A model generated the notes under the pieces. That model saw only the letters and a program-made list of their open reading frames with translations. It made no database searches and was not told the DNA's origin. The translations under genes were made by a program, and so were the position numbers. Source: a virus. From it: a DNA stretch of 46,986 bases. Positions 23,075-45,839 of this stretch are shown here, one piece after another. The stretch is taken from IMG/VR virus record IMGVR_UViG_3300024999_000160, positions 1 to 46,986 of that record. One strand, 5' to 3'. The first letter of the stretch is position 1. Each line of letters starts with the position of its first letter.

Positions 23075-23446
23075 CTAATCAACTTTATCTGTTTTTTCTA
23101 CTGCACTTTCGTCAGATTTAAATTTACCAGTAAGAAAGCCAGTCATTTTAATATAAACCTCTTTCCCGTACCATGCATAACTAGAGAGCATCAACATACG
23201 AGTTGCGGTTGCTAAATCAAGAGTTTGATCATTTACATTTACCACAACAATATCCGAATTTAATTTTCCGATAATTATAACTAAAACAAAACAAAAGACA
23301 ATAATAACTCCTTTTACTAACCCCTGCCAAAATTTTGTTTTATCAAACTTTTGTTGAAAAATAGAACTGACAGAACCTAAAATAATGTTAACTATTACTA
23401 AAACCAATAAACTACCACCAAGTAATAAACTTTGTTGATCAAACAT
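23075..23446 (-). CDS. Holin-like two-helix membrane protein
   Basis: 123 residues from the second ATG (MFDQQSLLLGG), because AAGGAGA abuts the first ATG three codons upstream. Helix 1 spans about residues 5-28, helix 2 about 43-61 (GVIIVFCFVLVIIIG), a weaker hydrophobic stretch follows near 80-95, and the tail is charged (KFKSDESAVEKTDKVD). Position right after a canonical holin gene and the endolysin suggests a second holin, an antiholin or a lysis-timing protein. Confidence 0.65.
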   Translation of the reverse strand: MFDQQSLLLGGSLLVLVIVNIILGSVSSIFQQKFDKTKFWQGLVKGVIIVFCFVLVIIIGKLNSDIVVVNVNDQTLDLATATRMLMLSSYAWYGKEVYIKMTGFLTGKFKSDESAVEKTDKVD

Positions 23447-23467
23447 TTTAATCATTCTCCTTAAATT

Positions 23468-24010
23468 TTATTTATTTTGATCTAATCCTAATATTTTTTT
23501 ATACTTATTCTTAATGAAATCACGTACAGGTATTAAACCCGATCCTCCCATAGCAATACCGTTCTCTAAAACACTTGAAACTTCTACAAACACAATTGCA
23601 CTATATATAACACCTGAAATTTCTTTACCAAATAGAATTCCATCTACTACACATAGTTGATTAGAAATGTACATTAATATTGCATATAAAATAACTTTTA
23701 CTGATATCCCATTCTTTAATTGTCTACTTGTCAGTTTTTTTTCTTGCCATGCCTTAAAATAGTTAGAGAAATTTAATGAATCATAATTAGTTATCACAAT
23801 ACTAATATGTTTCGTTAAAATATCAACTATGGATAAAACTAATATAAAGACAACAATTTCTTTTGGATAACCAATTTGACTCAAGAAGACACCAAAGATA
23901 AAACTTAAAAGAAGTATTCCTCTGTCAAAAAAACGAGCGATAATATCTAATGCTTGTAAATATATTTCATTCCACATATTATTTTTGTCCACCTCTTTCA
24001 CAATTGACAT
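23468..24010 (-). CDS. Phage holin (toxin-secretion/lysis holin family)
   Basis: 180 residues with helices at about 28-48, 52-70, 105-123 and 130-150. The block KLTSRQLKNGISVKVI and the later SSVLENG segment are typical of the four-helix phage_holin_4 family (TIGR01593-like, from memory). The protein would form membrane lesions that release the endolysin. GAAAGGGG precedes the ATG. It follows the amidase gene, separated by hairpins, so it is partly independent in expression. Confidence 0.85.
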   Translation of the reverse strand: MSIVKEVDKNNMWNEIYLQALDIIARFFDRGILLLSFIFGVFLSQIGYPKEIVVFILVLSIVDILTKHISIVITNYDSLNFSNYFKAWQEKKLTSRQLKNGISVKVILYAILMYISNQLCVVDGILFGKEISGVIYSAIVFVEVSSVLENGIAMGGSGLIPVRDFIKNKYKKILGLDQNK

Positions 24011-24051
24011 TTGACTTTGCCCCTTTCTTATGATATTATTCCAACTAAGGT

Positions 24052-24111
24052 TAACAAAGCTCGTACTTTGTTTTACCTAGCAAGTCTCAGATCGGGCAGT
24101 TCTGAGCTTGC
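24052..24111. repeat. Two hairpins in the holin leader
   Basis: AACAAAG / CTTTGTT (24052-24058 with 24065-24071) and GCAAG-CTCAGA / TCTGAG-CTTGC (24080-24111, one bulged T). Both sit 40-100 nt before the holin start and could time its expression. Confidence 0.55.
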
Positions 24112-24154
24112 GATACATAAACAATAGAATATAAATAATTTTTTATGGTAGCAA

Positions 24155-24182
24155 AGAGGTGTAAATATATTATTACACCTCT
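24155..24182 (-). terminator. Terminator of the amidase gene
   Basis: A perfect 10-bp stem AGAGGTGTAA / TTACACCTCT with an AT loop, 20 nt after the amidase stop codon; TTTGC follows on the minus strand, so termination is probably partial. Confidence 0.65.
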
Positions 24183-24202
24183 AGTTGAAGTTTGTTTTAT
24201 AA

Positions 24203-25057
24203 TTATCCTAGATACTTTCCGACAGCTTGAGCAGTATCATACTTCGTATTTCCACTCAATAAAATCTCATTTTGATGATTTACAGAACCACCTCCGACAA
24301 TGATCAATTTCTTAGCACTCATAGCTTCTTTTGGGATAGTCCCATTAAACCTAGTAAATAAAGCACAGTTTCCATTCTTTACACAGACATCATGACCACT
24401 CCAATAGTCTTCCTTTGAAAATAAAAGTACAGCAACGTCTAACACATTATCATCTCCTTGATTATTATTTATTGTTGATTGAGTAATTGAGATTGCTTGT
24501 TCTTTATAGGCCAATCCTAAGAAATTACATATACCTCTTGCTATAGCACTCGAAACCTTATCATCCCACTTAGAATCTTTCATTAATGCTTCTTCTTTAG
24601 GATTAGAAATAAATCCAATTTCAGTTAATATAGCAGGACAATCTGTTTCACGTAAAACATGATAGTTAGCAGTCTTTAAGCCTCTGTCAAATAAATTGGT
24701 GGCAGGAACTAATTTTTGATGCACTGCTTCTGCCAACACTCTGCCTTTTCCAACAGATGTTAGTGAAAATGTTTCTACACCATGCGAGTCTGCTGAGTAA
24801 GAATTACAGTGAATTGAGATAAAATAATCACTTTTCCAAGCATTTGATTTATTTGTCACATCATATAAATCTCCATCTTGATATACTAATGTTTCTATCC
24901 CATTAAATTTGAGTTTATTAGAAACTAAATCAGCTATCTCTTTTGTTTCAATATATTCTTTATATCCTGTTGCTCCAATTGCACCTGGATCATATCCATT
25001 TGAATCTGAATTATTGACTCCTTTTGGGCCATGACCTGCATTGATAAAAATTTTCAC
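24203..25057 (-). CDS. Endolysin: N-acetylmuramoyl-L-alanine amidase (Amidase_3)
   Basis: 284 residues starting at GTG (AGGAAGGTG upstream). The Amidase_3 domain covers residues 1-180: zinc ligands H9 (NAGHG), a Glu in the EYIETKE helix (37-40) and H83 (SIHCNS), with catalytic E146 (LTEIGFISN). It cuts the MurNAc-L-Ala bond. Residues about 205-284 (VLDVAVLLFSKEDYW...KLIIVGGGS) form a C-terminal domain like the CW_binding_2 wall-binding repeats. No signal peptide, so release depends on the neighbouring holins. Confidence 0.93.
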   Translation of the reverse strand: MKIFINAGHGPKGVNNSDSNGYDPGAIGATGYKEYIETKEIADLVSNKLKFNGIETLVYQDGDLYDVTNKSNAWKSDYFISIHCNSYSADSHGVETFSLTSVGKGRVLAEAVHQKLVPATNLFDRGLKTANYHVLRETDCPAILTEIGFISNPKEEALMKDSKWDDKVSSAIARGICNFLGLAYKEQAISITQSTINNNQGDDNVLDVAVLLFSKEDYWSGHDVCVKNGNCALFTRFNGTIPKEAMSAKKLIIVGGGSVNHQNEILLSGNTKYDTAQAVGKYLG

Positions 25058-32923: not shown

Positions 32924-33238
32924 TTATTGAACAATTATCTGCACAATCCCGACAATAACCTCTACATTTCGACTCGTGTCGTTACCACCTGTACCAAGTA
33001 AGGGGTTGATTGTCATTTTTATTCGCAAATTACCAGTAACTGTAGGTTCTAACAAAACTGAACATTCCTTTTTTACATTATCAAATTGTGCTGTCCCAGA
33101 TGATAAAATAGTTCCTGAACTATTTACATACTCATATGTGGCAGATTGAAATTCGAAATTACTACCGTCACTAGAAAGAACAGATAACGAGCACGTTTTG
33201 CGTTCACCAATATTAAAAATTATATTAATCACCTCCAA
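32924..33238 (-). CDS. 104-residue beta-rich tail protein
   Basis: All-beta product (IIFNIGERKTCSLSVLSSDG; SATYEYVNSSGTILSSG; NVEVIVGIVQIIVQ), similar in style to small Ig-like tail or carboxypeptidase-like domains. The start is unclear: the TTG and GTG codons at the 5' end form part of the ribosome-binding site GGAGGTGATT inside the previous gene, so translation may begin up to seven codons later at an ATA or ATT. It is coupled to the 14-residue-repeat protein, and both lie between two matching terminators. Confidence 0.6.
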   Translation of the reverse strand: MEVINIIFNIGERKTCSLSVLSSDGSNFEFQSATYEYVNSSGTILSSGTAQFDNVKKECSVLLEPTVTGNLRIKMTINPLLGTGGNDTSRNVEVIVGIVQIIVQ

Positions 33239-34346
33239 TAATTATATTGATATCATATTTATCATTTATTTCTCGAACTAAATAGTTACTATTAATTAAA
33301 TTAATGCAATAATTATCATCTAATTCCTTAGTTGAATAATTCTCACTAAGATAATTAATCTTATATATTTTACTAGCAACTGGTTCTGGATTAAAAAGTC
33401 TCCTTAAAGTATCATAAACATTCGTAATAAAACTTGATACTTTACGTTTAGTGGATACTAAAACATCTACAATTACAATATTTTTACGTTTTGTATCGAC
33501 ATTAAAACTGTTTAAAACCGTTATTCTACGTTGGGTATTTATTGCAGAAGTGGTTGTCAAATAAATTTTACGATATGTGTTAGCATTAATAGAAGCTGAA
33601 ATGGCTACTCTTCTTCTGGAATCTGAATTAAAACTATTTGATACTGCAACTCTGCGTTGAGTGTTTATGACTGAACTACTTACAATATATGTTCGTCTAT
33701 TTATATCTGATTGAACATTAGAAGATACTACTACTTTCCTCTTAGAGTCAAATATTGATGATATAGAGTTTTTTACTCTCCTAATTACATTAAGATTTGA
33801 TAGAGTGTCTAATACTGTTCTTCTTTTTACATCTGAATCAGTAGTAACATTTACCAAAACTTTCCTCATCAAATCTAAGTTAATATTTACATTGAATAAA
33901 TTCTTTACAATCCTCAATGTGTCAACATTAAATATATCTGTTAATGTGACTTTTCTCTTTGTTTCATGGTTAGAGGAAATTGTATTTGCAACTTTACGTT
34001 GAGAATCAAAATTTAAACTTGGGTTAATGAGTATCTTTCTTTGAACATCACTATTTAGAGAAGGATTGATTATGATCTTACGGTTTATATCAATCTGTAA
34101 ATTTGATGTATTTACAATTTTAAGTAATGTGTCACATTGAGATATAATTTGGTTGGTAATATTTAAGTTTGTATCAATATTTGATGTTTGAGTTATGTTT
34201 ATGTTGCGTTGTATATCAGAAAAATTTGTTATTAAAGTTGAAAGATTTCTTGATGTGTCTGCATTAAATGAAACTGAATAAATTATCTTGCCTGAACTAT
34301 TTAGTAAAAAACTGTTAAATTGAGGGGTGTTGAATATGGTTATCAC
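33225..34346 (-). CDS. Tail protein built of about 20 fourteen-residue repeats
   Basis: 373 residues, GTG start. From about residue 20 to 310 the chain is a regular repeat of 14 residues with the plan x-x-S-x-N-x-D-x-x-R-(R/K)-V-x-x, for example NPSLNFDSQRKVAN and SNSFNSDSRRRVAI. The alternation of Asp and paired basic residues with a hydrophobic every few positions suggests a beta-solenoid or ladder with a strongly charged face. The C-terminal 60 residues (YKINYLSENYSTKELDDNY...) look like a cap or trimerisation part. By position a fibre shaft or adhesin; no named family recognised. Confidence 0.65.
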   Translation of the reverse strand: MITIFNTPQFNSFLLNSSGKIIYSVSFNADTSRNLSTLITNFSDIQRNINITQTSNIDTNLNITNQIISQCDTLLKIVNTSNLQIDINRKIIINPSLNSDVQRKILINPSLNFDSQRKVANTISSNHETKRKVTLTDIFNVDTLRIVKNLFNVNINLDLMRKVLVNVTTDSDVKRRTVLDTLSNLNVIRRVKNSISSIFDSKRKVVVSSNVQSDINRRTYIVSSSVINTQRRVAVSNSFNSDSRRRVAISASINANTYRKIYLTTTSAINTQRRITVLNSFNVDTKRKNIVIVDVLVSTKRKVSSFITNVYDTLRRLFNPEPVASKIYKINYLSENYSTKELDDNYCINLINSNYLVREINDKYDINIIIGGD

Positions 34347-35186: not shown

Positions 35187-35579
35187 TTACTTCCTATCGA
35201 CCATCCTAAACATTCCTTGCTTTATAACCACCAACTTCTTCAAATTAAAATCCAAACTATATCCAACTTTATTATTCCTATCCATACAATAATTATAAAC
35301 TTTTGTACCAAAACATTTTAAAACATTATCCTTAAACAACATTTCTTTTTCTATTACTAAATCTGCAAACATGTCTTTAAATTTATTCAAATTAAACTCA
35401 TTTGCAGATTCATTTGTATCATTTAGATATGATTGAAATAAATTTTGAAGTGACTTAATCTGCAACCCTAACAATTCTAATCTATTACATACTTCTGTTG
35501 GAAAATCTATAAATATTTTTTGTTCAGGAGTAAGTTTGATTATTTCATCTAATAAATTTTTCGCTAATATTTTTTTCAT
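35187..35579 (-). CDS. 130-residue helical protein downstream of the rSAM/Cys-rich pair
   Basis: Begins MKKILAKNLLDEIIKLTPEQ and is helical and charged through to residue 90, with a C-terminal strand pair (KVGYSLDFNLKKLVVIKQG). Two Cys (CFGTKVYNYC) lie near residue 90. It starts 2 nt after the stop of the previous gene. It could be a chaperone or accessory factor for tail assembly or for the Cys-rich protein; no family recognised. Confidence 0.6.
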   Translation of the reverse strand: MKKILAKNLLDEIIKLTPEQKIFIDFPTEVCNRLELLGLQIKSLQNLFQSYLNDTNESANEFNLNKFKDMFADLVIEKEMLFKDNVLKCFGTKVYNYCMDRNNKVGYSLDFNLKKLVVIKQGMFRMVDRK

Positions 35580-35581
35580 TA

Positions 35582-36022
35582 TTATACCCCTAACGACTGT
35601 ATTTTGTCTATTGCTGATTTTATTCTTGCGCTATCACCAAGAAAAATTGAAATTCCAACAACAACTGTATAATATTTAAAACTATTAATAGAGCTTAATA
35701 ATGCTTTATCAATAAAATCTGCCAAACTTTGCTTGTTATTATAGTTAATGTTTTTTGCCTCTAAGATTCCTAGCATTAATTCTCTTCTTTCTTCTAATAT
35801 AGTTAAAGTATTTATTATTTTTATAACTATTTCATTATTACTTATATTAGAAGATTCAATTATCCTATCAATATTTTCATAAATAAGGGTATTAAATTCT
35901 ACATGTGTTTGAGTTATCGTGTTTAAATTATTTATTTCTGTTTCAATAGTAGAATCATTTATTTTTACTTTGGCACTAAGTGACAATAGAGACGTTAGAA
36001 TAATTATTTCTTCATTTGTCAT
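35582..36022 (-). CDS. 146-residue helical protein, unknown
   Basis: Starts MTNEEIIILTSLLSLSAKV behind AAAAGGAGTG. Predicted almost wholly helical, Ile/Asn-rich, with a hydrophobic C-terminal helix (FKYYTVVVGISIFLGD) that could be membrane-associated or buried. It belongs to the four-gene string after the Cys-rich gene. Possibly an assembly chaperone; nothing is certain. Confidence 0.6.
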   Translation of the reverse strand: MTNEEIIILTSLLSLSAKVKINDSTIETEINNLNTITQTHVEFNTLIYENIDRIIESSNISNNEIVIKIINTLTILEERRELMLGILEAKNINYNNKQSLADFIDKALLSSINSFKYYTVVVGISIFLGDSARIKSAIDKIQSLGV

Positions 36023-36038
36023 ATATTTTACACTCCTT

Positions 36039-36287
36039 TTAACCTAATATTATTATTCTTTTACAAGCAGGACACTCTGCTACCATATCTTTATTCCATA
36101 TTAAACGATCTCTGCAAATATAGCATGACCAAGTACCTCCTTTATCATCGCCAAAAATACCTAACCCATAAACAGTATCCCGTTTAAGCATTGATAATAA
36201 TTCTGGAGTATTATATAATTTTCCTAATAGATTTGCTTCGAGAATTTCTCTCACTGTATTAATATTGCCTATATTGTATTCTTTCAT
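36039..36287 (-). CDS. 82-residue zinc-ribbon (rubredoxin-like) protein
   Basis: AAAGGAGTG precedes the ATG. Residues 1-45 are helical (NTVREILEANLLGKLYNTPE). The C-terminal part holds CYICRDRL and CPAC, a four-Cys knuckle pair of the zinc-ribbon or rubredoxin type (Cys near 55, 58, 72 and 75). It lies 20 nt after the Cys-rich gene. A metal or electron-handling role beside a radical SAM enzyme is an attractive but unproven idea; structural zinc binding is the simpler reading. Confidence 0.65.
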   Translation of the reverse strand: MKEYNIGNINTVREILEANLLGKLYNTPELLSMLKRDTVYGLGIFGDDKGGTWSCYICRDRLIWNKDMVAECPACKRIIILG

Positions 36288-36307: not shown

Positions 36308-37360
36308 TTAGTTTAAATTTTCAACCATTAATGTTTGAATATAAGTAATTGTATCAGTAATGTCGCTCGTTAAAATTATATCTCCTACAGAAACAGTATG
36401 GTTTATAGAAGGATTAAATAGGTGTTCATCATCAAATATTTTTTGAAGATGTTCTTTATATATTACCCCACCACTTGTTGGTTCCACTGTATATGTATCC
36501 AACGTTGGTAATTCCATACTTCTTCTTGAAAATTCATTTCGTAAAGCATTCTTAAGTTCTGGAAAATCAGTTGGTAATATACGCCCTTTATTCCTAATAT
36601 TTAATCCTAAATCCGCAATAGTTTGAGATGAACTACTTGAAGTACATGCATTATCACATTCTCCAGTGCAAGTTCCAGTACAGGTAGCACCACATCCACC
36701 ACAGCTATTGGTGCAAGTTCCAGTACACAATCCAGTACATGTTCCCATACACCCTGTACAAACATTAGTACAACCACCAGTACAGTTTCCACCACATGAT
36801 ATAGTACACGTCCCCGTACAACCAGTACAAACATTGGTGCAAGCATTTGTACAACCTGTACAAGTTGCTGTGCAAGTACCTGTACAATAATTAGTACAAC
36901 CATCTCCGCAAGCTCCTGTACATGCTCCTGTGCAAGTACCAGTGCAAGTATCAGTACAACTAGTGCAACCTCCTATACAACTAGTACAACCAATACAACT
37001 ACCAGTACAACTAGTGCAATCTCCCGTACATGCAATTCCACAACCAGAACATGAATCGGTACACGTTCCTGTACATCCTGTTACACAACTAGTACAAACG
37101 TCTGTGCAACTAGTAGTGCAAGCATCTGTGCAAATATTGGTACAAGTGCCAGTACAATCATAGGTGCAAGTACCAGTACAATTAGCACCACATTCTACAG
37201 AACAAGTTCCAGTACAACTTGTACATGCTCCAAAACACCCCTCCCCACAACCACCCGTACAAGTTCCATCGCATGCACCACAACTACCTGTACAAGTTCT
37301 ATCACAAGTGCCAGTACAACTCGTGTAACAACCTCCTGTACAATCTCCTGTACAAGACAT
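36308..37360 (-). CDS. Giant CxxxC-repeat protein, probable rSAM substrate in the tail operon
   Basis: 350 residues. Residues 1-240 consist of about 63 Cys, every one spaced CxxxC (about 50 times) or CxxC (12 times), mostly as C-T-G-x-C (CTGTC, CTGDC, CTNVC); the other residues are nearly all Thr, Gly, Ser, Ala, Asn and Asp. There is no His or Lys in the repeat. After a Ser run, the last 105 residues form an ordinary acidic domain (TIADLGLNIRNKGRIL...VGDIILTSDITDTIT). The radical SAM/SPASM gene lies 20 nt upstream. I infer that the repeats are crosslinked by it, like giant ranthipeptide or CXXX-repeat RiPP precursors. Plain metal or disulfide binding is the alternative. Confidence 0.7.
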   Translation of the reverse strand: MSCTGDCTGGCYTSCTGTCDRTCTGSCGACDGTCTGGCGEGCFGACTSCTGTCSVECGANCTGTCTYDCTGTCTNICTDACTTSCTDVCTSCVTGCTGTCTDSCSGCGIACTGDCTSCTGSCIGCTSCIGGCTSCTDTCTGTCTGACTGACGDGCTNYCTGTCTATCTGCTNACTNVCTGCTGTCTISCGGNCTGGCTNVCTGCMGTCTGLCTGTCTNSCGGCGATCTGTCTGECDNACTSSSSSQTIADLGLNIRNKGRILPTDFPELKNALRNEFSRRSMELPTLDTYTVEPTSGGVIYKEHLQKIFDDEHLFNPSINHTVSVGDIILTSDITDTITYIQTLMVENLN

Positions 37361-37380
37361 ATTTAATCACCATCCAATCT

Positions 37381-38715
37381 TTAAGTATTTATTTTTCTAT
37401 TTAAGCCAATAAGATTTTTTATCGTATCATTTGATATATTTAAAGGGAAATTTCTATTAAGTCCAAGTTTATCATAAAGTTTTGACCAATACGCATTATT
37501 AGCTAATACCCTTGCGTGATGCATATCACAAATAAATGTTGCCCTATGATTTGGATCACCGAATTTATCATAATTATATCCAGTACATAAAGCACACCCA
37601 CTTGCAATCTGACAATTATTGCATTTATCTGTTGATTGTGTTGACATTGTTACTTGAACTAATTGATTTAACCATTCATTTTCACCCTTTGCATCCAATC
37701 CCTTATAAATATCCCCAATTGATTTTTCTTCTCTGTTAGGAGTTGACAGCGAATATTTCATAAATCTAATGCAAGGGAAACATCTTCCATCTGGAGCAAT
37801 TGCCAACATTGAACCGTTCCCACCACAATAGTTTCTATCTTCCGTCAATGGTTTACCAATTGTTTCATCGAATAGTGATATAAAATTATTTTTATATAAC
37901 TCATTATCTATTACATAATCAGCTAATTTAATCATTTGTTCATATAGTATTTTTGCATGTTTTTTCTTCCATCCTTCTTCAAATACGCAATTTGCAAATA
38001 TAATCTTTATTCCCATATTCCAAAGATTTAAAGCAGCATCAAAAAGATAATGAACGTTATCAGGAGATAAGGTTAATTTAGTTCCAGGGTTATTATCCAT
38101 TTCTAACCATTTTTTAACTGATTTAACTACAATATCATAACTTCCTGATCCATCTGGAAACACTCTACAAGAATCATGTAACTCCTTATTTCCATCTATA
38201 GTTATTCCAATACTTACTTTCCCTTGATTTCTTTTCAGAAATTGCTCAACTTTTGGAGTGTTAAAAAGAATTCCATTAGAAGTAAAACTAATCATATAAT
38301 TTGTTGCCCAAGGGCTATCAACCTCAAATGCCTTGAATTTAAAATATTCTACGATATAATCCATTAAATCTATTTCTAATAATGGTTCCCCACCAATAAA
38401 TTCAAGAATTACAGCAGGACTCTTCTCTTCGGTAAAATATCCATTTACTTTTTCTTTATTAAAGAGAAAATCTACAGCATCTTTAGCAATTTCTTTTGTC
38501 ATTGTTGCATTTGATTTGTGGGTCTCGTAGCAATATTTACAATTGAGATTGCAACGTTCAGTAACAACAAAAGTAATATTCTTTACTTTCAAATCGGGAT
38601 CAATTGTACATCCTTCTAATGGTTTTTCTTTGTCACTCATCACCAATTTACTAAAATAATCTTGCCATTGTTCATTATCTGCTGAAGTTAAATACAATCC
38701 ATTTTTAGGTTCCAA
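37381..38715 (-). CDS. Radical SAM/SPASM peptide-modifying enzyme
   Basis: 444 residues from a TTG start behind AAAAGGTGG. The radical SAM cluster motif is C55, C59 and C62 (TERCNLNCKYCYE), with the GGEP motif at 108-111. The SPASM region holds C297 (YCGGNGS), C312 and C315 (GRCFPC), C365, C368, C374, C377 (CNNC...CALC) and C396, enough for two auxiliary Fe-S clusters. This layout is typical of maturases such as SCIFF/ranthipeptide and sactipeptide enzymes, which build thioether bonds from Cys. The next gene encodes the CxxxC-repeat protein, the obvious substrate. Its place in a phage tail operon is highly unusual. Confidence 0.88.
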   Translation of the reverse strand: MEPKNGLYLTSADNEQWQDYFSKLVMSDKEKPLEGCTIDPDLKVKNITFVVTERCNLNCKYCYETHKSNATMTKEIAKDAVDFLFNKEKVNGYFTEEKSPAVILEFIGGEPLLEIDLMDYIVEYFKFKAFEVDSPWATNYMISFTSNGILFNTPKVEQFLKRNQGKVSIGITIDGNKELHDSCRVFPDGSGSYDIVVKSVKKWLEMDNNPGTKLTLSPDNVHYLFDAALNLWNMGIKIIFANCVFEEGWKKKHAKILYEQMIKLADYVIDNELYKNNFISLFDETIGKPLTEDRNYCGGNGSMLAIAPDGRCFPCIRFMKYSLSTPNREEKSIGDIYKGLDAKGENEWLNQLVQVTMSTQSTDKCNNCQIASGCALCTGYNYDKFGDPNHRATFICDMHHARVLANNAYWSKLYDKLGLNRNFPLNISNDTIKNLIGLNRKINT

Positions 38716-38793: not shown

Positions 38794-41700
38794 CTAAGAA
38801 ATCATAATTAACATCCAAATTCTATTTACATCCTGACCACTGTAATTTTCCAATGCTTTGCCTATTACTGTTCCAGAAATGTATTTAGTTGATGCCATAG
38901 CAATACCACAAGTTTCAGATGCTACAAGCAAATCTCCAATTTTTACTTCACCAGCAACTTTAACCCTAACCCTTCCAGCCACCCCGACCGGAGCGAATTT
39001 TATAGTATCATCTTCACTTCCTTCTCCTCCAATACATTGAGCAAAATCGTCAGAATAGACTCCTACAACTAAATTATCATAAGCATATCTAGATTTTATA
39101 TATCCTTTGCCATTGGGATTTTTGCATATAACATCTCCTACTTCTATTTCTTCATCTTTTAAAAAATATTCAGCATAATCATTATAAAAAGCATTGAATG
39201 TTTTAGTTGGATAAAAATATCCTGAATAATTTAATCTAGTAGTTCCTGATGGTGCGATTGTTGTTTTATCAAACTTGCCATTTGTACTAGATGCTGAATA
39301 TTGAACAAATAAATTCAATAATGCTTCTTTTTCAGCATAATATGTTTGAAATTTTGCCAAGAAAACTGTTCTATCTATGTTACTTGTAATTGTTAAATTT
39401 GATAACAATGGTTCTATATATGTTCTTAAAGCATAATGTGCATTGGTATATGCTGTATGATCAGATACACCATAATTGGAGGTACTAGAAATAATCCCAT
39501 TATATTCATCATAAATAACAGTCCATTCCCTTTTTACAACTTTCTTTTCTGTCGCTGTGAGCTTTGAATCATCTGCCATTTCGGTCAATAATTCCATAGC
39601 TTGAGTGTCTAATATTTTTGCCCAAGTGTAAGAAGCAACAGAAGTTGAGTCTGCCAAATAGAAATCTGTATATGTTCCTATATAAGCACCAGGCGTTTCA
39701 CCTGAATTTGAAGTAAAAGTTAATCCACCATCGTCAGAATACTTAACATGGAAATAAGGCGTCAAACCATTTGATCCTGGAGTTCCTGGAGTTCCATCTG
39801 TACCTGTTATTTTGTTCCAAACATACATTGAAGGATTCGAAGAAGCAGTTGGACTAGAATCTGAATAAGTTCCCAAATATGTTCCAGATGCAAAGTTAAA
39901 ACCTACTGTTCCATCAGAATCATATGCAAAAGCAATATGAAGATATGAAGCTTTTGTATCAGCATATGTTTTCGCAGAAGATGCAATGAACTGTAATAAT
40001 TCACCTCTTGCACTGTAATAATCATTAAACTTATCATCAAATTCATCTCTAGTAATATTTGTAGTTTTTGTTAAATCACCTAAAATTGGTGTAGGATTAC
40101 TAATATTGTTAGGAAGAATAGTTACAAAAAGATAAGTATATACTGCATTATAAGCATTACCATATATTGTGTAATATGTTGACATCGTCGATGATGGATA
40201 TAATAATACTTGTGCATCTAAATTAATTTTTTCTAAAACAATTGCATCCCATATTGGTTTTAATTTTATTTTTTCACTTTTTGTTATTTTACCTCCATCA
40301 GAAATATCTTCTAATTCTTCTAATATACTTGTAGCATCTAATTGTGCTTTATTTGCTATTGCTTTTGTTATATTTGCAACAACATTGTCCGTATACTCTG
40401 AAGAATCAATCCAATCAGAAGAAAGATAACTTCCCTCCAATCTTTCAACTATACAAATTTTCAACTCTCCTGTTGATTGTTGTCGCCATAAATCTTCAAA
40501 ACTATATGGTGGCTGAGGTGTTGAGATAAAAATTCTGCGATTTGTATCTAACGACCCATATTCTTTTGAAGCATCAGACAATGCTTTAATTACATCTGTA
40601 TTGGTTATCAAAACCCATTGATAGTCTGAAACAACATAAGAGAATCTATAAGAATTTTTAGAAGATACATCGTAAAATAAATCACCCAAATGGTAATTTT
40701 TAATAGTATTTGAACTCCAATTTATACTAGGTATATTTATTAACGATGGAGCATAGTTGTAGAAGTAACATTCAACTTTCAATCCATCTATATCACCTTG
40801 ACTTTGAAAACTGGTACTATCTGCTGTATAAAGAACATTTACAAAATTTATTAAACTACTTGAAATTATGGAATTAGAATTATCTGCTTGTACTGTAGAT
40901 ATTTTATTAAGAAGAAGTGATTTTGTACTTTGTACATTTTCAAAACATGTTTTAACTTGACCTTTTTCTTCTGCTGTTACAGGTAGTGGATATAAGCTAC
41001 TATCTTTGTCTATCCATGTGTTAAGTATGTTAGTTAAAGCAGTTAAGGCATTTTGATAATCTGTCTTTTCAGTTTCTCCTGTTTTATCTAATCCTAAAGT
41101 TGTTGCAAGTGTAATTAAAGGAGTAGATTCTGCAATTACTGATGCTAAATCTGATGCTAAATCTTGAGATTCCTTTATGGTTATTGAACTATCACTAAAA
41201 GCATTATTAATCTCTGCTCCTAATCCAATTATTGATTCAGCTAATCCAGATATTGCATCTCCAATATAATTACGTGCAACTCCCATAATCGCCTTAAGCA
41301 ATGTAATTTTAGCATCATAATAAGAATTAAAATTATTTATAAACGTAGCACTAACAATTGTTGAGCTTGATGTAATAACTGATAATATAGGAGAAATATA
41401 AGCACTAAAATTAGAATAGGCAGTTTCATAAATTCCTAATGCAGAAACTACATCTGGATAATCAATTGTATTATAATAACTTGCTTGTAGTTCAATATTA
41501 GATTTTTCACTTACAATTGTATCCCAATATTTTTTAACAACTTTTTTTTCTGTGGAAGTTACTGTTGTGTTTAATGCAACTTTATTGATATCTACCATTG
41601 CTACTATTTTATCTGATTCTGCTGTTTGTACTGCTAATATTGCTTCTGCTGAGATTACAGAAGTTCCAATAGCAATTCCTTGAGGAGTTCCATCTACTAT

Positions 41701-44700
41701 TTTTGTGGAAATATCTGCATATGGTGCATGACTTCCACTATCACAAAATACTTCTAATGCTGAACCTTTAAATAATCCTGGAATTCCAATTAAGGCAAAC
41801 GGGAATTTGCCTGTTCCTGTATCTGTTCCCGTGCCACCAATTTTAATCATTGCATTTAATAAATTAGCATTCCATCCAATTGAATTATAAGAAGTCAAAG
41901 CAACAATCACTGTATCATCTAGTGTATTTAATTTTGTTGCTAAATCTAATCTTGCTTGATCGTCTGCATATGTATCATACAATTGAGTAAAAATCACCGA
42001 CAAATCTTCTCTACTAATAACTGTTAACATTAATCCTCTACCAGATACTCCACTAGCACTAATTGATTTTTTGTTAAGTTTTAAATAACGAACAGAATTA
42101 TGATTTGCCCCAGTACCTCTTATAGAAATTTCTCCATCTATAGAGTATTCAGGAGTTTTTAGAGTAATTGCATTATTTAAAGCCAATTTCGTACTCATTA
42201 CCAATTTAAACTTATTAAGTAGTAGCTTTTTCTCTAATGTTTTCATTTTTTTGGGATAACTTATTAACGACAATCCAACCCATTTATTCAATTCTACTTG
42301 TAATCCATCAACGCCACATGACACCACTGTTCCAGTCAAAGAATTTTGATAATTATCTATCAATGTAGTAGAAACTGACATACTGTTTGCAATATCAATT
42401 ACATCATCGCTTTCATCTAATATGTTATTAAATGATAAACCCAACGAAACGGATTCGTCATAAGTAATTAAACCACCTTTTGCAAATGTCTCAATATCAG
42501 TCTGCATTGAAACGATAGCAACATTTGCTTCAAATATTTGTTCATCAACATAGGTTAGCTCATTTTCTTCTCTAATTTGTAGAATTATAGAATTTAATAT
42601 TTCTTTAGTGGATTCTACTTTCTTTAAATTGTTATTTATCGTCCTACCCTTACTGGCGGATATTTTAATTGGATATTGTGAAGATAATTGATCCAACCAA
42701 TCATCTATTGAATTAAGAGCAGTAGAAATTGCAGATTCATAATCACTTTCTGCATCATTTAAGTCACCATTATCCTCGATTATTTCTTTTAATGTGTTTG
42801 CAATTGCAACAATATCATCAGATTCAGTTTGGACAGCAGTAAATAAAGGGTCTAATATATTAGATTCTGCCTCCGTAATACTTCCTTTTTTAATGTAAAT
42901 ATTAACTTGAGTTTGAAAATCACTTAATGCTGTATTTAATTCTGCCACCTGTGTTTCAACATAATTTTTTGCATCATTTAAACGAGCGTTTCCAATTGCA
43001 TTGATTAAAATTGATTTTGTATTTTCAACCGTTTTAAATAAATTACTAATGGTAATTCTTTCATCTTCAGGACTACTATCACTAATAATTTGGATAGGAT
43101 AATTTGGTTGGTCAATCCAATCACTTCTTAACTCTGCTTCTAAAGCATCTAAAGCATTATTGTAGTTATCTGCTTCTGTTGTAATTTCAAGATCATATGC
43201 AATATTTAAAATATCTTCCGATTCTGCTATTGCTTGTTCTAATGTTAATTTTAAAGCATTTGCTTCATCTTTTGTGATAAATCCATCTGCACCAAATCTA
43301 TTGATATCAATACTTAAATTTAACAAAGATCCTGTCATCTCTTGAATTTGTAAATCAATATATTCTGTAGCATTATCTTGAGATTTATCCCATTTCATTT
43401 TATTGATATCGATTACATCTACCACAGAGGTTGTTTTATAAATTACATCAGCAAGTTTGGAGTTTTTGCTTTTTACATTAGAAATTGTTAATTGTATTTC
43501 AGCACTTTCGAAGTCAAAATTTACTTCAATTATTCTAGCCGTTATATCTATTCCTAATTGTTCATGCTTAATAGATATTGAATCACCTAAATTAATTTTA
43601 TCCCAATTAGATTGTTCGCTTATTATTTCAAGAAAGTTTACTATGTTAATTTGGATTACAGTTTCTGGATATTTCCTTTTCTCCATTTCGTCTAATCCAT
43701 AAATATACAGCTCTTCTGCACTTATAAGCGAATCATTTGTCCAGTCTTTTTCATAAATATATGGAATTAATTCTGCTAATAATTCAGGAGTAAAATATGT
43801 TTCATAAGACATATCAGTTGCAATTTGTTTGATACTAGCATTTATAACATCAATTTCTGCTTGTTTTGCATCAATTAATAACTGTAAGGCATCAATTTCT
43901 ACTTGTTTTGCTATTTTTTGATCAGTATAAGTTGTTTTCTTCGACCCACTAGCAGTTACAAGATTATCATCAATAATTTTCATTTCATCGATTAATATTG
44001 TCATTGCGTTTGTTAATGCTGTCATTTCAGTTTGCTTTGTTGTTAAAGTTGCTAACAAGGTAGGAAAATCATCTTTATGTTGAGTTAATAATATTTGATA
44101 ATCTAAAATCTTATGACATAAATTATCCGACATATAATCTGAATGGGCAATTACTTCTCTAGTTTCTTCATTCCTTTGAAAAGGGAAAAGAAAGTTGCTA
44201 TAATTTTCTATATAAGATTGACCAGTTGGGTTTATCCCATTGATTGTTAATCCGTCTTTGCCATATAATTTTAATCTAGTACAAAATAATTCACTATCTA
44301 TATTTTGCACAATGGTTCTAAGATATCTTTTATTTGAAATTTGCAACCCTTTATTTATCCCAATGTTATCAAGAGTAGAAAAGTTTACTTTTCTAGTATT
44401 AGAATCAAATTTTGCAATCAGATTAAATTTTTCAGCAATTTCAAGAATGAAATCAAGTTTTGTTTTAACACTTACTTCAAATGAACGATATACAGAATCT
44501 AGTTCAATGGGATAATCACCCAGAAGCCAACCAGTTTCTTTGAGAATTCCTTCATAATTTGTAGTCGTAGTAGTTGATATTCCATCTGTTATGACGGTTG
44601 TATCTCTAGAAAATCCATCTACGCTCATAATTTCTGATAATTTTACAGAATTAATTGTATATTTTCTAATTGATTTATTTTTTAATTCATATTCAAGAGA

Positions 44701-45024
44701 GTAACAATTAATTTGTAAGAAATCTGTATTATCATCTGAATTTGGAGCAGGGTTATCTATAACAAAAAAAGCAGTATATTCTCCTAAAATTAACTTTATG
44801 AGGAATCTATTTTTAACTTGATCGCAATGAATATTATGTTGAAGTTCATGGTTAATATCTAATTGATAAGGTAAATCAAAAGTTAATTCATTCATTGTTG
44901 TTAAGTTTAGTTTCAGGTTTGCTGAATAATGTTCTTTTAAAGATGCTATAATTGTTTTATCTGGTTTGCAAAGATATAATTTAGGGCGTTGAGGGGCTTT
45001 GGATAGGTCTATATCTAAAAACAT
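38794..45024 (-). CDS. Giant tail-tip/spike protein (2,076 residues)
   Basis: The first ~520 residues resemble the baseplate-hub/tail-endopeptidase class of siphoviruses (FDLPYQLDINHELQHNI; FFVIDNPAPNSDD; Gp37-like). Then follow long helical repeats, each with a G-x-I-T-x-x-E-S pattern and an IWDAI/LFTAVQ-type helix (about 530-1,660), and beta modules with a collagen-like GTPGTPGSNG stretch (about 1,760). The C-terminal ~135 residues (YNDYAEYFLKDEEIEVGDVI...NRIWMLIMIS) match the peptidase_G2/intramolecular chaperone type that trims and trimerises fibres. AAAGGAG precedes the ATG. It probably forms the central tail spike and contacts the cell wall. Confidence 0.85.
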   Translation of the reverse strand: MFLDIDLSKAPQRPKLYLCKPDKTIIASLKEHYSANLKLNLTTMNELTFDLPYQLDINHELQHNIHCDQVKNRFLIKLILGEYTAFFVIDNPAPNSDDNTDFLQINCYSLEYELKNKSIRKYTINSVKLSEIMSVDGFSRDTTVITDGISTTTTTNYEGILKETGWLLGDYPIELDSVYRSFEVSVKTKLDFILEIAEKFNLIAKFDSNTRKVNFSTLDNIGINKGLQISNKRYLRTIVQNIDSELFCTRLKLYGKDGLTINGINPTGQSYIENYSNFLFPFQRNEETREVIAHSDYMSDNLCHKILDYQILLTQHKDDFPTLLATLTTKQTEMTALTNAMTILIDEMKIIDDNLVTASGSKKTTYTDQKIAKQVEIDALQLLIDAKQAEIDVINASIKQIATDMSYETYFTPELLAELIPYIYEKDWTNDSLISAEELYIYGLDEMEKRKYPETVIQINIVNFLEIISEQSNWDKINLGDSISIKHEQLGIDITARIIEVNFDFESAEIQLTISNVKSKNSKLADVIYKTTSVVDVIDINKMKWDKSQDNATEYIDLQIQEMTGSLLNLSIDINRFGADGFITKDEANALKLTLEQAIAESEDILNIAYDLEITTEADNYNNALDALEAELRSDWIDQPNYPIQIISDSSPEDERITISNLFKTVENTKSILINAIGNARLNDAKNYVETQVAELNTALSDFQTQVNIYIKKGSITEAESNILDPLFTAVQTESDDIVAIANTLKEIIEDNGDLNDAESDYESAISTALNSIDDWLDQLSSQYPIKISASKGRTINNNLKKVESTKEILNSIILQIREENELTYVDEQIFEANVAIVSMQTDIETFAKGGLITYDESVSLGLSFNNILDESDDVIDIANSMSVSTTLIDNYQNSLTGTVVSCGVDGLQVELNKWVGLSLISYPKKMKTLEKKLLLNKFKLVMSTKLALNNAITLKTPEYSIDGEISIRGTGANHNSVRYLKLNKKSISASGVSGRGLMLTVISREDLSVIFTQLYDTYADDQARLDLATKLNTLDDTVIVALTSYNSIGWNANLLNAMIKIGGTGTDTGTGKFPFALIGIPGLFKGSALEVFCDSGSHAPYADISTKIVDGTPQGIAIGTSVISAEAILAVQTAESDKIVAMVDINKVALNTTVTSTEKKVVKKYWDTIVSEKSNIELQASYYNTIDYPDVVSALGIYETAYSNFSAYISPILSVITSSSTIVSATFINNFNSYYDAKITLLKAIMGVARNYIGDAISGLAESIIGLGAEINNAFSDSSITIKESQDLASDLASVIAESTPLITLATTLGLDKTGETEKTDYQNALTALTNILNTWIDKDSSLYPLPVTAEEKGQVKTCFENVQSTKSLLLNKISTVQADNSNSIISSSLINFVNVLYTADSTSFQSQGDIDGLKVECYFYNYAPSLINIPSINWSSNTIKNYHLGDLFYDVSSKNSYRFSYVVSDYQWVLITNTDVIKALSDASKEYGSLDTNRRIFISTPQPPYSFEDLWRQQSTGELKICIVERLEGSYLSSDWIDSSEYTDNVVANITKAIANKAQLDATSILEELEDISDGGKITKSEKIKLKPIWDAIVLEKINLDAQVLLYPSSTMSTYYTIYGNAYNAVYTYLFVTILPNNISNPTPILGDLTKTTNITRDEFDDKFNDYYSARGELLQFIASSAKTYADTKASYLHIAFAYDSDGTVGFNFASGTYLGTYSDSSPTASSNPSMYVWNKITGTDGTPGTPGSNGLTPYFHVKYSDDGGLTFTSNSGETPGAYIGTYTDFYLADSTSVASYTWAKILDTQAMELLTEMADDSKLTATEKKVVKREWTVIYDEYNGIISSTSNYGVSDHTAYTNAHYALRTYIEPLLSNLTITSNIDRTVFLAKFQTYYAEKEALLNLFVQYSASSTNGKFDKTTIAPSGTTRLNYSGYFYPTKTFNAFYNDYAEYFLKDEEIEVGDVICKNPNGKGYIKSRYAYDNLVVGVYSDDFAQCIGGEGSEDDTIKFAPVGVAGRVRVKVAGEVKIGDLLVASETCGIAMASTKYISGTVIGKALENYSGQDVNRIWMLIMIS

Positions 45025-45068: not shown

Positions 45069-45839
45069 TTAAAGCATTTTAAATTGATACTTAAATTGAA
45101 TTTTCATATTTCCAAAGCATTGAAGAGAATTTACCCCTCTGAGCATATTCAAGAATACTCCATTATGATTGTCATATCTGTAGGTTAATGGAATAGACGT
45201 AGTGATTTGTTCATTTTCACTATCAATATTTAAATCCTCATTTGCTGTAAGAGATGTTAACGAGAATATTTTTCCTCCGTTAGAATTATTAACTATTGAT
45301 ATATCTCCATCTCCTATTTTTTGAAGCGAAAGTATTGGTTGACAATCAACATCTCCATTATTTATAAAGGTTAGATTTGTACCGAGAGTTAGATTTGAAG
45401 ATAAATCGTAGATAGGCGATGTATAAATGGGAGAATAAATATATTCATCTTTACATCTCATTTGAATAGTTATATATCCCTGAAAATTCCCTGTATGTAT
45501 TAGTGTAGAACTACTTTCTAAAATACAGTAAAATATCTTATCAGGTATTGATTCAAAAACCAGTGGGCAATAACTTTCTTGTGAGAGCCATCTTTTCAAG
45601 GAGCGAAGTTTATCTTCATCAAATGAATCTGAGAACGCTATGGTCAAATTTAGTGTTCTAGGATTTGATTTTACTTCAACAAAATAAGGAGATGATTTTC
45701 GAGTTGTAATTTCTTTAATTTCTCTATCACTAATAAAATTTTCTTGATATAATCCCGTATCTACTGTACAATTAATCACTCCGAAGTCAATTGATGATTG
45801 ATTATTATATGTAAATACAAGGGATTCTGATATTGGCAT
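45069..45839 (-). CDS. Distal tail protein (Dit)
   Basis: 256 residues, ATG behind TAGGAGGCG. The N-terminal half has the Dit pattern (LVFTYNNQSSIDFGVINC; FISDREIKEITTRKSSPYF; LNLTIAFSDSFDEDKLRSLK; WLSQE); the C-terminal half is a galectin-like beta domain (FINNGDVDCQPILSLQKIG). Dit forms the hexameric hub between tail tube and tip, and by convention its gene directly precedes the tail-endopeptidase gene, as here. Confidence 0.88.
   Translation of the reverse strand: MPISESLVFTYNNQSSIDFGVINCTVDTGLYQENFISDREIKEITTRKSSPYFVEVKSNPRTLNLTIAFSDSFDEDKLRSLKRWLSQESYCPLVFESIPDKIFYCILESSSTLIHTGNFQGYITIQMRCKDEYIYSPIYTSPIYDLSSNLTLGTNLTFINNGDVDCQPILSLQKIGDGDISIVNNSNGGKIFSLTSLTANEDLNIDSENEQITTSIPLTYRYDNHNGVFLNMLRGVNSLQCFGNMKIQFKYQFKML

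Follow-up and report, generated by a model that had tools for sequence, protein, structure and literature searches.

Why does a phage carry, between the genes of its tail, the gene of a radical SAM (rSAM) enzyme of the kind that matures peptides, and directly beside it the gene of a protein with 63 cysteines? The question is raised by a virus contig from IMG/VR, 46,986 nucleotides long and called the window in the following, in which the rSAM gene lies upstream of the cysteine-array gene with a spacer of 20 nt (37361-37380; Table 1). The Dit-like gene and the gene of the 2076-aa YOMG_N/Prophage_tail protein come before the pair, and tail-fibre-like genes come after it. Homing endonucleases, antirepressors and YomG in the window suggest that the virus is an SPbeta-like siphophage. 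Its tail region also encodes a 373-aa protein (33225-34346) of degenerate repeats of about 20 residues with an R-K/R motif.

Table 1. Genes and domains at the rSAM/cysteine-array locus of the window, with the basis of each assignment
Feature	Position	Strand	Basis
Radical SAM/SPASM maturase, TIGR04115 family, 444 aa, TTG start	37381..38715	(-)	Profile score, invariant Cys
Cys-array protein, 350 aa, 63 Cys; proposed substrate, tail-associated	36308..37360	(-)	Spacing, shuffles, relatives beside rSAM
Cys tract, residues 3-239, CxxxC/CxxC, loops rich in Thr/Gly/Ser	36644..37354	(-)	Sequence
Conserved all-helical domain, residues 240-350	36311..36643	(-)	Alignment of 28 sequences and AlphaFold2
130-aa protein, remote TIGR04116 relative, probable maturation partner	35187..35579	(-)	hhalign, predicted fold
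146-aa helical-looking protein, accompanies the cassette within the clade of the window	35582..36022	(-)	Homologues beside the pair
82-aa protein, CxxC...CxxC zinc-ribbon-like pattern, insert in the window cassette	36039..36287	(-)	Sequence
2076-aa tail protein (YOMG_N, Prophage_tail), upstream context	38794..45024	(-)	Domain matches
Distal tail protein (Dit-like), upstream context	45069..45839	(-)	Domain matches

The enzyme and the cysteine array of the window

The window enzyme has a CxxxCxxC motif at C55, C59 and C62 and seven more cysteines at positions 297, 315, 365, 368, 374, 377 and 396, and in an alignment of 14 relatives all of these, together with GGEP, are invariant. With the NCBIfam model TIGR04115, entitled 'radical SAM peptide maturase, CXXX-repeat target family', it scores 433.1 bits against a cut-off of 350, and with the second-best family, PapB, a thioether-forming ranthipeptide maturase, 196.1 bits against a cut-off of 340; the 14 aligned relatives all match both models. 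In Pfam, Radical_SAM is above its cut-off and SPASM reaches 19.6 bits against 21.5. Among solved structures, 5wgg (E 1e-41), the SCIFF maturase CteB, has the sequence profile nearest to that of the enzyme. A sequence-only reading of the locus had placed a SPASM-type rSAM enzyme 20 nt upstream of the cysteine protein, which stands, and had proposed that the enzyme be compared with CXXX-repeat and ranthipeptide maturase profiles, a comparison that comes out for the former and against the latter. It had also stated that a heavily crosslinked, rigid or metal-loaded tail element would be new. Since NCBIfam already defines TIGR04115 for CXXX-repeat targets, the enzyme is not of a new kind; what is new is its structural context in a phage, and the scale. 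We know of no product of any TIGR04115 enzyme, and the thioether chemistry considered below therefore rests on the relatives PapB and CteB.

All cysteines of the 350-aa protein lie within the tract, and the 62 intervals between them are of four residues in 50 cases and of three in 12, with no other length, so that the strict spacing of about 63 cysteines claimed earlier is in fact exact. In 2000 composition-preserving shuffles of the protein, the number of intervals of 3 or 4 was 15.6 on average and 28 of 62 at most. The tract is not a microsatellite or other simple DNA repeat, because its 50 CxxxC units have 47 distinct DNA sequences (and 35 distinct peptides) and both cysteine codons are used (49 TGT, 14 TGC). 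The loops were described as mostly C-T-G-x-C, which is an overstatement, as TGx is found in 21 of the 50 CxxxC loops. They are rich in Thr, Ser and Gly and nearly devoid of Pro, with no conserved acceptor residue beyond the Thr/Ser/Gly bias. Asp and Glu make up 4.4% and 1.9% of the CxxxC loop positions and position +4 from each CxxxC cysteine is the next cysteine, so the idea of a Cys-to-Asp link fits poorly. The window protein has no match to the repeat model TIGR04114 at E 0.01; a phage relative (L013, whose cysteine protein has 193 aa) scores 21.3 bits with this model and the protein of phage SPN3US 19.6, against a cut-off of 20.

Conservation of the cassette across phages

A first search gave ten viral rSAM relatives, most with an adjoining cysteine array, and a profile scan gave 373, of which the best 80 were taken. 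Among the 91 rSAM-bearing loci examined (some loci overlap, and several are the same contig), a cysteine-array ORF recognised by a fixed rule lies near the rSAM gene in 87. Of the other four, one (L220) has a shorter array, a 68-aa protein with 11 Cys, one (L011) has its array on the same 188-kb contig about 110 kb from the rSAM gene, and two (L179, L226) are short contig fragments. The distinct pairs number 67, one cellular-looking locus (L012) among them; all are on the same strand, 65 lie within 1 kb of each other, and the median gap is 332 nt. The pairing is conserved. The coupling of enzyme and cysteine protein in the sequence-only reading is thereby seen in essentially every intact relative: the adjacent pair, which it had suggested looking for, recurs in other phage tail operons, and rSAM genes lacking any cysteine partner, which it had named as contrary evidence, were looked for in these loci and not observed, the four exceptions being accounted for as above.

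Loci L008-L011 seemed to hold a broken, partnerless rSAM gene, which is explained by TAG being read as Gln. Gut- or rumen-type phages (L008, L010, L011 and L154) apparently read TAG in this way, and the TAG codons fall inside the rSAM gene and also inside the cysteine tract of L154. When viral contigs were searched for the bare pattern of eight CxxxC, most matches were microsatellites or lay in the wrong frame; the handful that looked real (L052, L066, L069, L070 and L087) are all in records with an rSAM gene. Cysteine-repeat proteins were also seen in two viral contigs where no rSAM gene was detected in the available stretch, one with CNPY repeats (L116, 7939-9015) and one of 860 aa with 141 Cys (L108, 1392-3974).

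The tail-operon setting, too, extends beyond the Dit-like and YOMG_N genes of the window. From a mechanically made list of 144 large neighbour proteins 74 were picked by hand and scanned with PHROG. Of the 25 families most frequent among them, 15 belong to the tail fibre, to the tail (collagen-like proteins included) or to the baseplate, one is an endolysin and nine are unnamed, and the setting between tail genes is kept across diverse phages. The phages that carry the pair range from apparently SPbeta-like siphophages and phages with contractile tails to gut phages that seem to be TAG-recoded and, with a diverged version, jumbo phages in culture. A scan of genome contigs from one query sequence gave a sole match, L150, a contractile-tail prophage in Desulfosporosinus with the same cassette; TIGR04115 occurs in 1 of 46 genomes of its family and in 1 of 398 of its phylum, the same genome both times. 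In the rSAM tree the window enzyme groups with that of L150 at full support, and because the two enzymes group together the cassette is seen to move between tail types.

Selection on the cysteines is seen in the jumbo phages SPN3US (Salmonella), phiEaH2 and others (Erwinia) and CR5 (Cronobacter), which have a diverged rSAM gene; that of SPN3US scores 125.6 bits with TIGR04115, far under the cut-off. SPN3US and the Erwinia jumbo phages can be grown on common laboratory hosts. In all 12 loci two tandem cysteine arrays of about 130-140 aa, largely unannotated, lie about 2 kb upstream of the rSAM gene and adjoin virion structural genes. When the 12 phages are aligned, 39 of 41 cysteine columns are invariant, and both TGT and TGC are used in 38 of these 39; of the 113 ungapped columns in the loops, just 24 do not vary. 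Purifying selection on the cysteine itself is strong, because its columns remain invariant despite synonymous codon change while the loops drift. In SPN3US (NC_027402) both array genes, at 143413-143817 and 143828-144220 of the phage and at 23414-23818 and 23829-24221 of locus L134, are missing from the annotation, and gp100/SPN3US_0166, which overlaps one of them, is called in the wrong frame. Beside the jumbo-phage rSAM gene there is a second, shorter rSAM-like gene without CxxxCxxC (L134, 21346-22140; L135, 19200-19979), possibly a non-catalytic partner.

Two further parts of the cassette recur. In the relatives, the gap of the pair often holds a TIGR04116-like protein of about 105 aa, and 2 of 39 such proteins match the TIGR04116 model itself. 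The window's 130-aa protein has no direct match to that model; hhalign aligns it with the profile of the 105-aa family, which includes a TIGR04116 member, at 95% and E 3.8e-8, a match that emerged only with 39 sequences and not with three. In its predicted fold (pLDDT 84) a strand is followed by two long helices and, at the end, by two more strands, and it is probably the maturation partner. The other part is a helical domain of about 105 residues, common to the cysteine proteins, which stands before the tract in most relatives and after it in the window, the order having switched several times across the rSAM tree. Its motifs E..RR and P...E are kept in 28 sequences of both orders and its AlphaFold2 model has a pLDDT of 85, so that what had been called an ordinary C-terminal domain is a folded and conserved one. 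Fold searches of the PDB with both models gave no relatives, and a search of BFVD gave one unnamed viral protein (TM 0.70, E 0.012). The 146-aa protein of the window has homologues adjoining the pair in L003, L004, L005, L007 and L150, and none like the 82-aa protein was noticed beside the pair among the relatives. No RRE-type recognition domain was identified for the cassette. By eye, iron-sulphur assembly-like proteins come right after the cassette in L006 (9966-11213) and L007 (11342-11764), perhaps supplying the rSAM enzyme.

Proposed chemistry and location of the product

The near-perfect pairing, the family membership and the conservation of the cysteines argue strongly that the tract would be modified by this rSAM enzyme. 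The array might instead bind metal, or form a rod stapled by disulphides, with the enzyme acting elsewhere or marginally. The CxxC/CxxxC spacing would suit either, and there is a precedent in the tail of phage Milano, which is also covalently cross-linked, by disulphides (PMC10811340); these are spread over tail proteins of the ordinary kind, and the description has no enzyme dedicated to making them. The one-to-one pairing, at nearly every locus, with a dedicated CXXX-type maturase would then be left unexplained, and we regard such an array as very improbable.

For a tract modified by the enzyme, we infer with moderate confidence that the bonds are thioethers, since PapB and the SCIFF enzymes form thioethers; counting against this is that the Cys-X3-Asp acceptor of PapB is missing in the window tract. 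SPASM peptide maturases are chemically varied, cyclophane formation included, which together with the lack of a conserved loop acceptor speaks for some other radical reaction (epimerisation, hydroxylation, C-C, C-O or Cys-to-Cys cross-links), the cysteines having other roles as well. This is unlikely, however, as the closest families form thioethers, as does the enzyme of the closest solved structure, and no other residue of the tract comes near cysteine in conservation.

To our mind it is fairly probable that the enzyme introduces a series of thioether cross-links into a protein that is associated with the tail and is probably of adhesin type. The cassette would be a phage-borne CXXX-repeat rSAM maturation system, with a tail-associated protein rather than a secreted peptide as its substrate. 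The rSAM/SPASM enzyme, with SAM and three iron-sulphur clusters, expected to be [4Fe-4S], would abstract hydrogen from residues of the short loops rich in Thr, Ser and Gly, and nearby cysteine thiols would then be joined to those loop carbons. Serial action along the tract would lead to dozens of small thioether rings, and the ringed tract would be a rod or tip that is covalent, rigid and resistant to proteases. The TIGR04116-like product would probably serve in substrate recognition or delivery, and through the helical domain the rod would probably be anchored to the tail tip or fibre, with an adhesion role there.

As to location, one array (L154, 1000-3063) lies inside a tail-fibre-like protein, followed by a C-terminal intein/Hint-like domain; another (L087) is fused to a weakly matching F5/8 type C-like domain and a third (L231) to a Gly-rich domain. 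The intein/Hint-like end of L154 might cleave or splice the fibre. The cysteine protein may accordingly be present in the virion with an adhesin role, and a rigid adhesin or fibre-tip rod is our best guess of its function. A modified protein outside the virion, secreted or displayed during infection or lysogeny as a RiPP-like signal, an antimicrobial or a means of superinfection exclusion, and encoded in a late operon by position only, would agree with the cellular relatives, which resemble secreted peptide systems. Yet by eye the phage proteins have no obvious export signal, some are fused to tail-like domains, and the setting between tail genes is conserved, all of which makes this rather unlikely. 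No published virion proteomics detecting the cysteine protein was found in the open literature; mass spectrometry of SPN3US virions used fixed cysteine carbamidomethylation and a database of 273 sequences (PMC10052503), so that non-detection there is uninformative.

The cassette among known systems

The gp38 fibre-tip adhesins of T-even-type phages, Gly-rich and of polyglycine II structure, resemble by description the proposed product as Gly-rich repetitive proteins encoded beside the fibre gene, but to our knowledge they are neither Cys-rich nor matured by an enzyme. Of the peptide systems, PapB/PapA (the ranthipeptide freyrasin) has the nearest other enzyme family and repeated cysteines at four-residue spacing. 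PapA, however, uses Cys-X3-Asp where the phage +4 residue is cysteine, and the phage enzyme is below the PapB cut-off; PapB links Cys to Asp or Glu and tolerates changes of spacing (PMC9413430). The SCIFF maturase and QhpD are likewise rSAM/SPASM thioether formers, the former linking Cys to Thr and the latter placing thioether bonds inside a functional protein, beyond small peptides (PMC8326336), but the window enzyme is below their cut-offs and their targets carry few cross-links.

In a search of open papers no report of phage rSAM/Cys-array tail proteins was found, and the pairing in phage tail operons appears to be unreported so far; nor has chemical stapling of a tail component, as suggested here, been described for a virus in the open literature. 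We give an even chance to there being a widespread, unrecognised class of phage tail proteins stapled by dozens of rSAM-made thioether rings. If this is true, a virion would for the first time be seen to have a structural element built by a radical SAM enzyme, and viruses would make a tail part by radical chemistry so far met chiefly in natural products of peptide type and in a small number of enzymes. The TIGR04115 group, uncharacterised to date, would gain a function, and there would be a genetically coded route to stapled rods.

The closest likeness is to the CXXX-repeat system itself (TIGR04115, TIGR04114/04117, TIGR04116, TIGR04119), with which the phage cassette shares an enzyme above cut-off and an adjoining CXXX-repeat target, together with a partner that resembles TIGR04116 remotely. 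The phage target differs in being larger, in lying in a tail operon, in its number of Cys, from 11 to about 100, and in the folded domain that it usually has; a Tat signal was not seen, and TIGR04119 is absent from the scanned window genes around the pair and from the other scanned neighbours. Cellular forms differ from phage forms in size, domain fusion and operon setting. The cellular-looking L012 has a Tat-type signal, TIGR04115, TIGR04116, TIGR04119 and Tat-like genes. On the Anaerococcus plasmid pAPRE01, TIGR04115 stands beside a peptide of 56 aa whose four Cys follow the CxxxC spacing, at a locus with a lanthipeptide region and ABC transporter genes. This minimal cellular TIGR04115 system (L248, 44-2517) holds the peptide, with CKLMCVHTCRYSC, the rSAM gene and, as a fragment of 41 aa, what looks like the beginning of a TIGR04116 protein.
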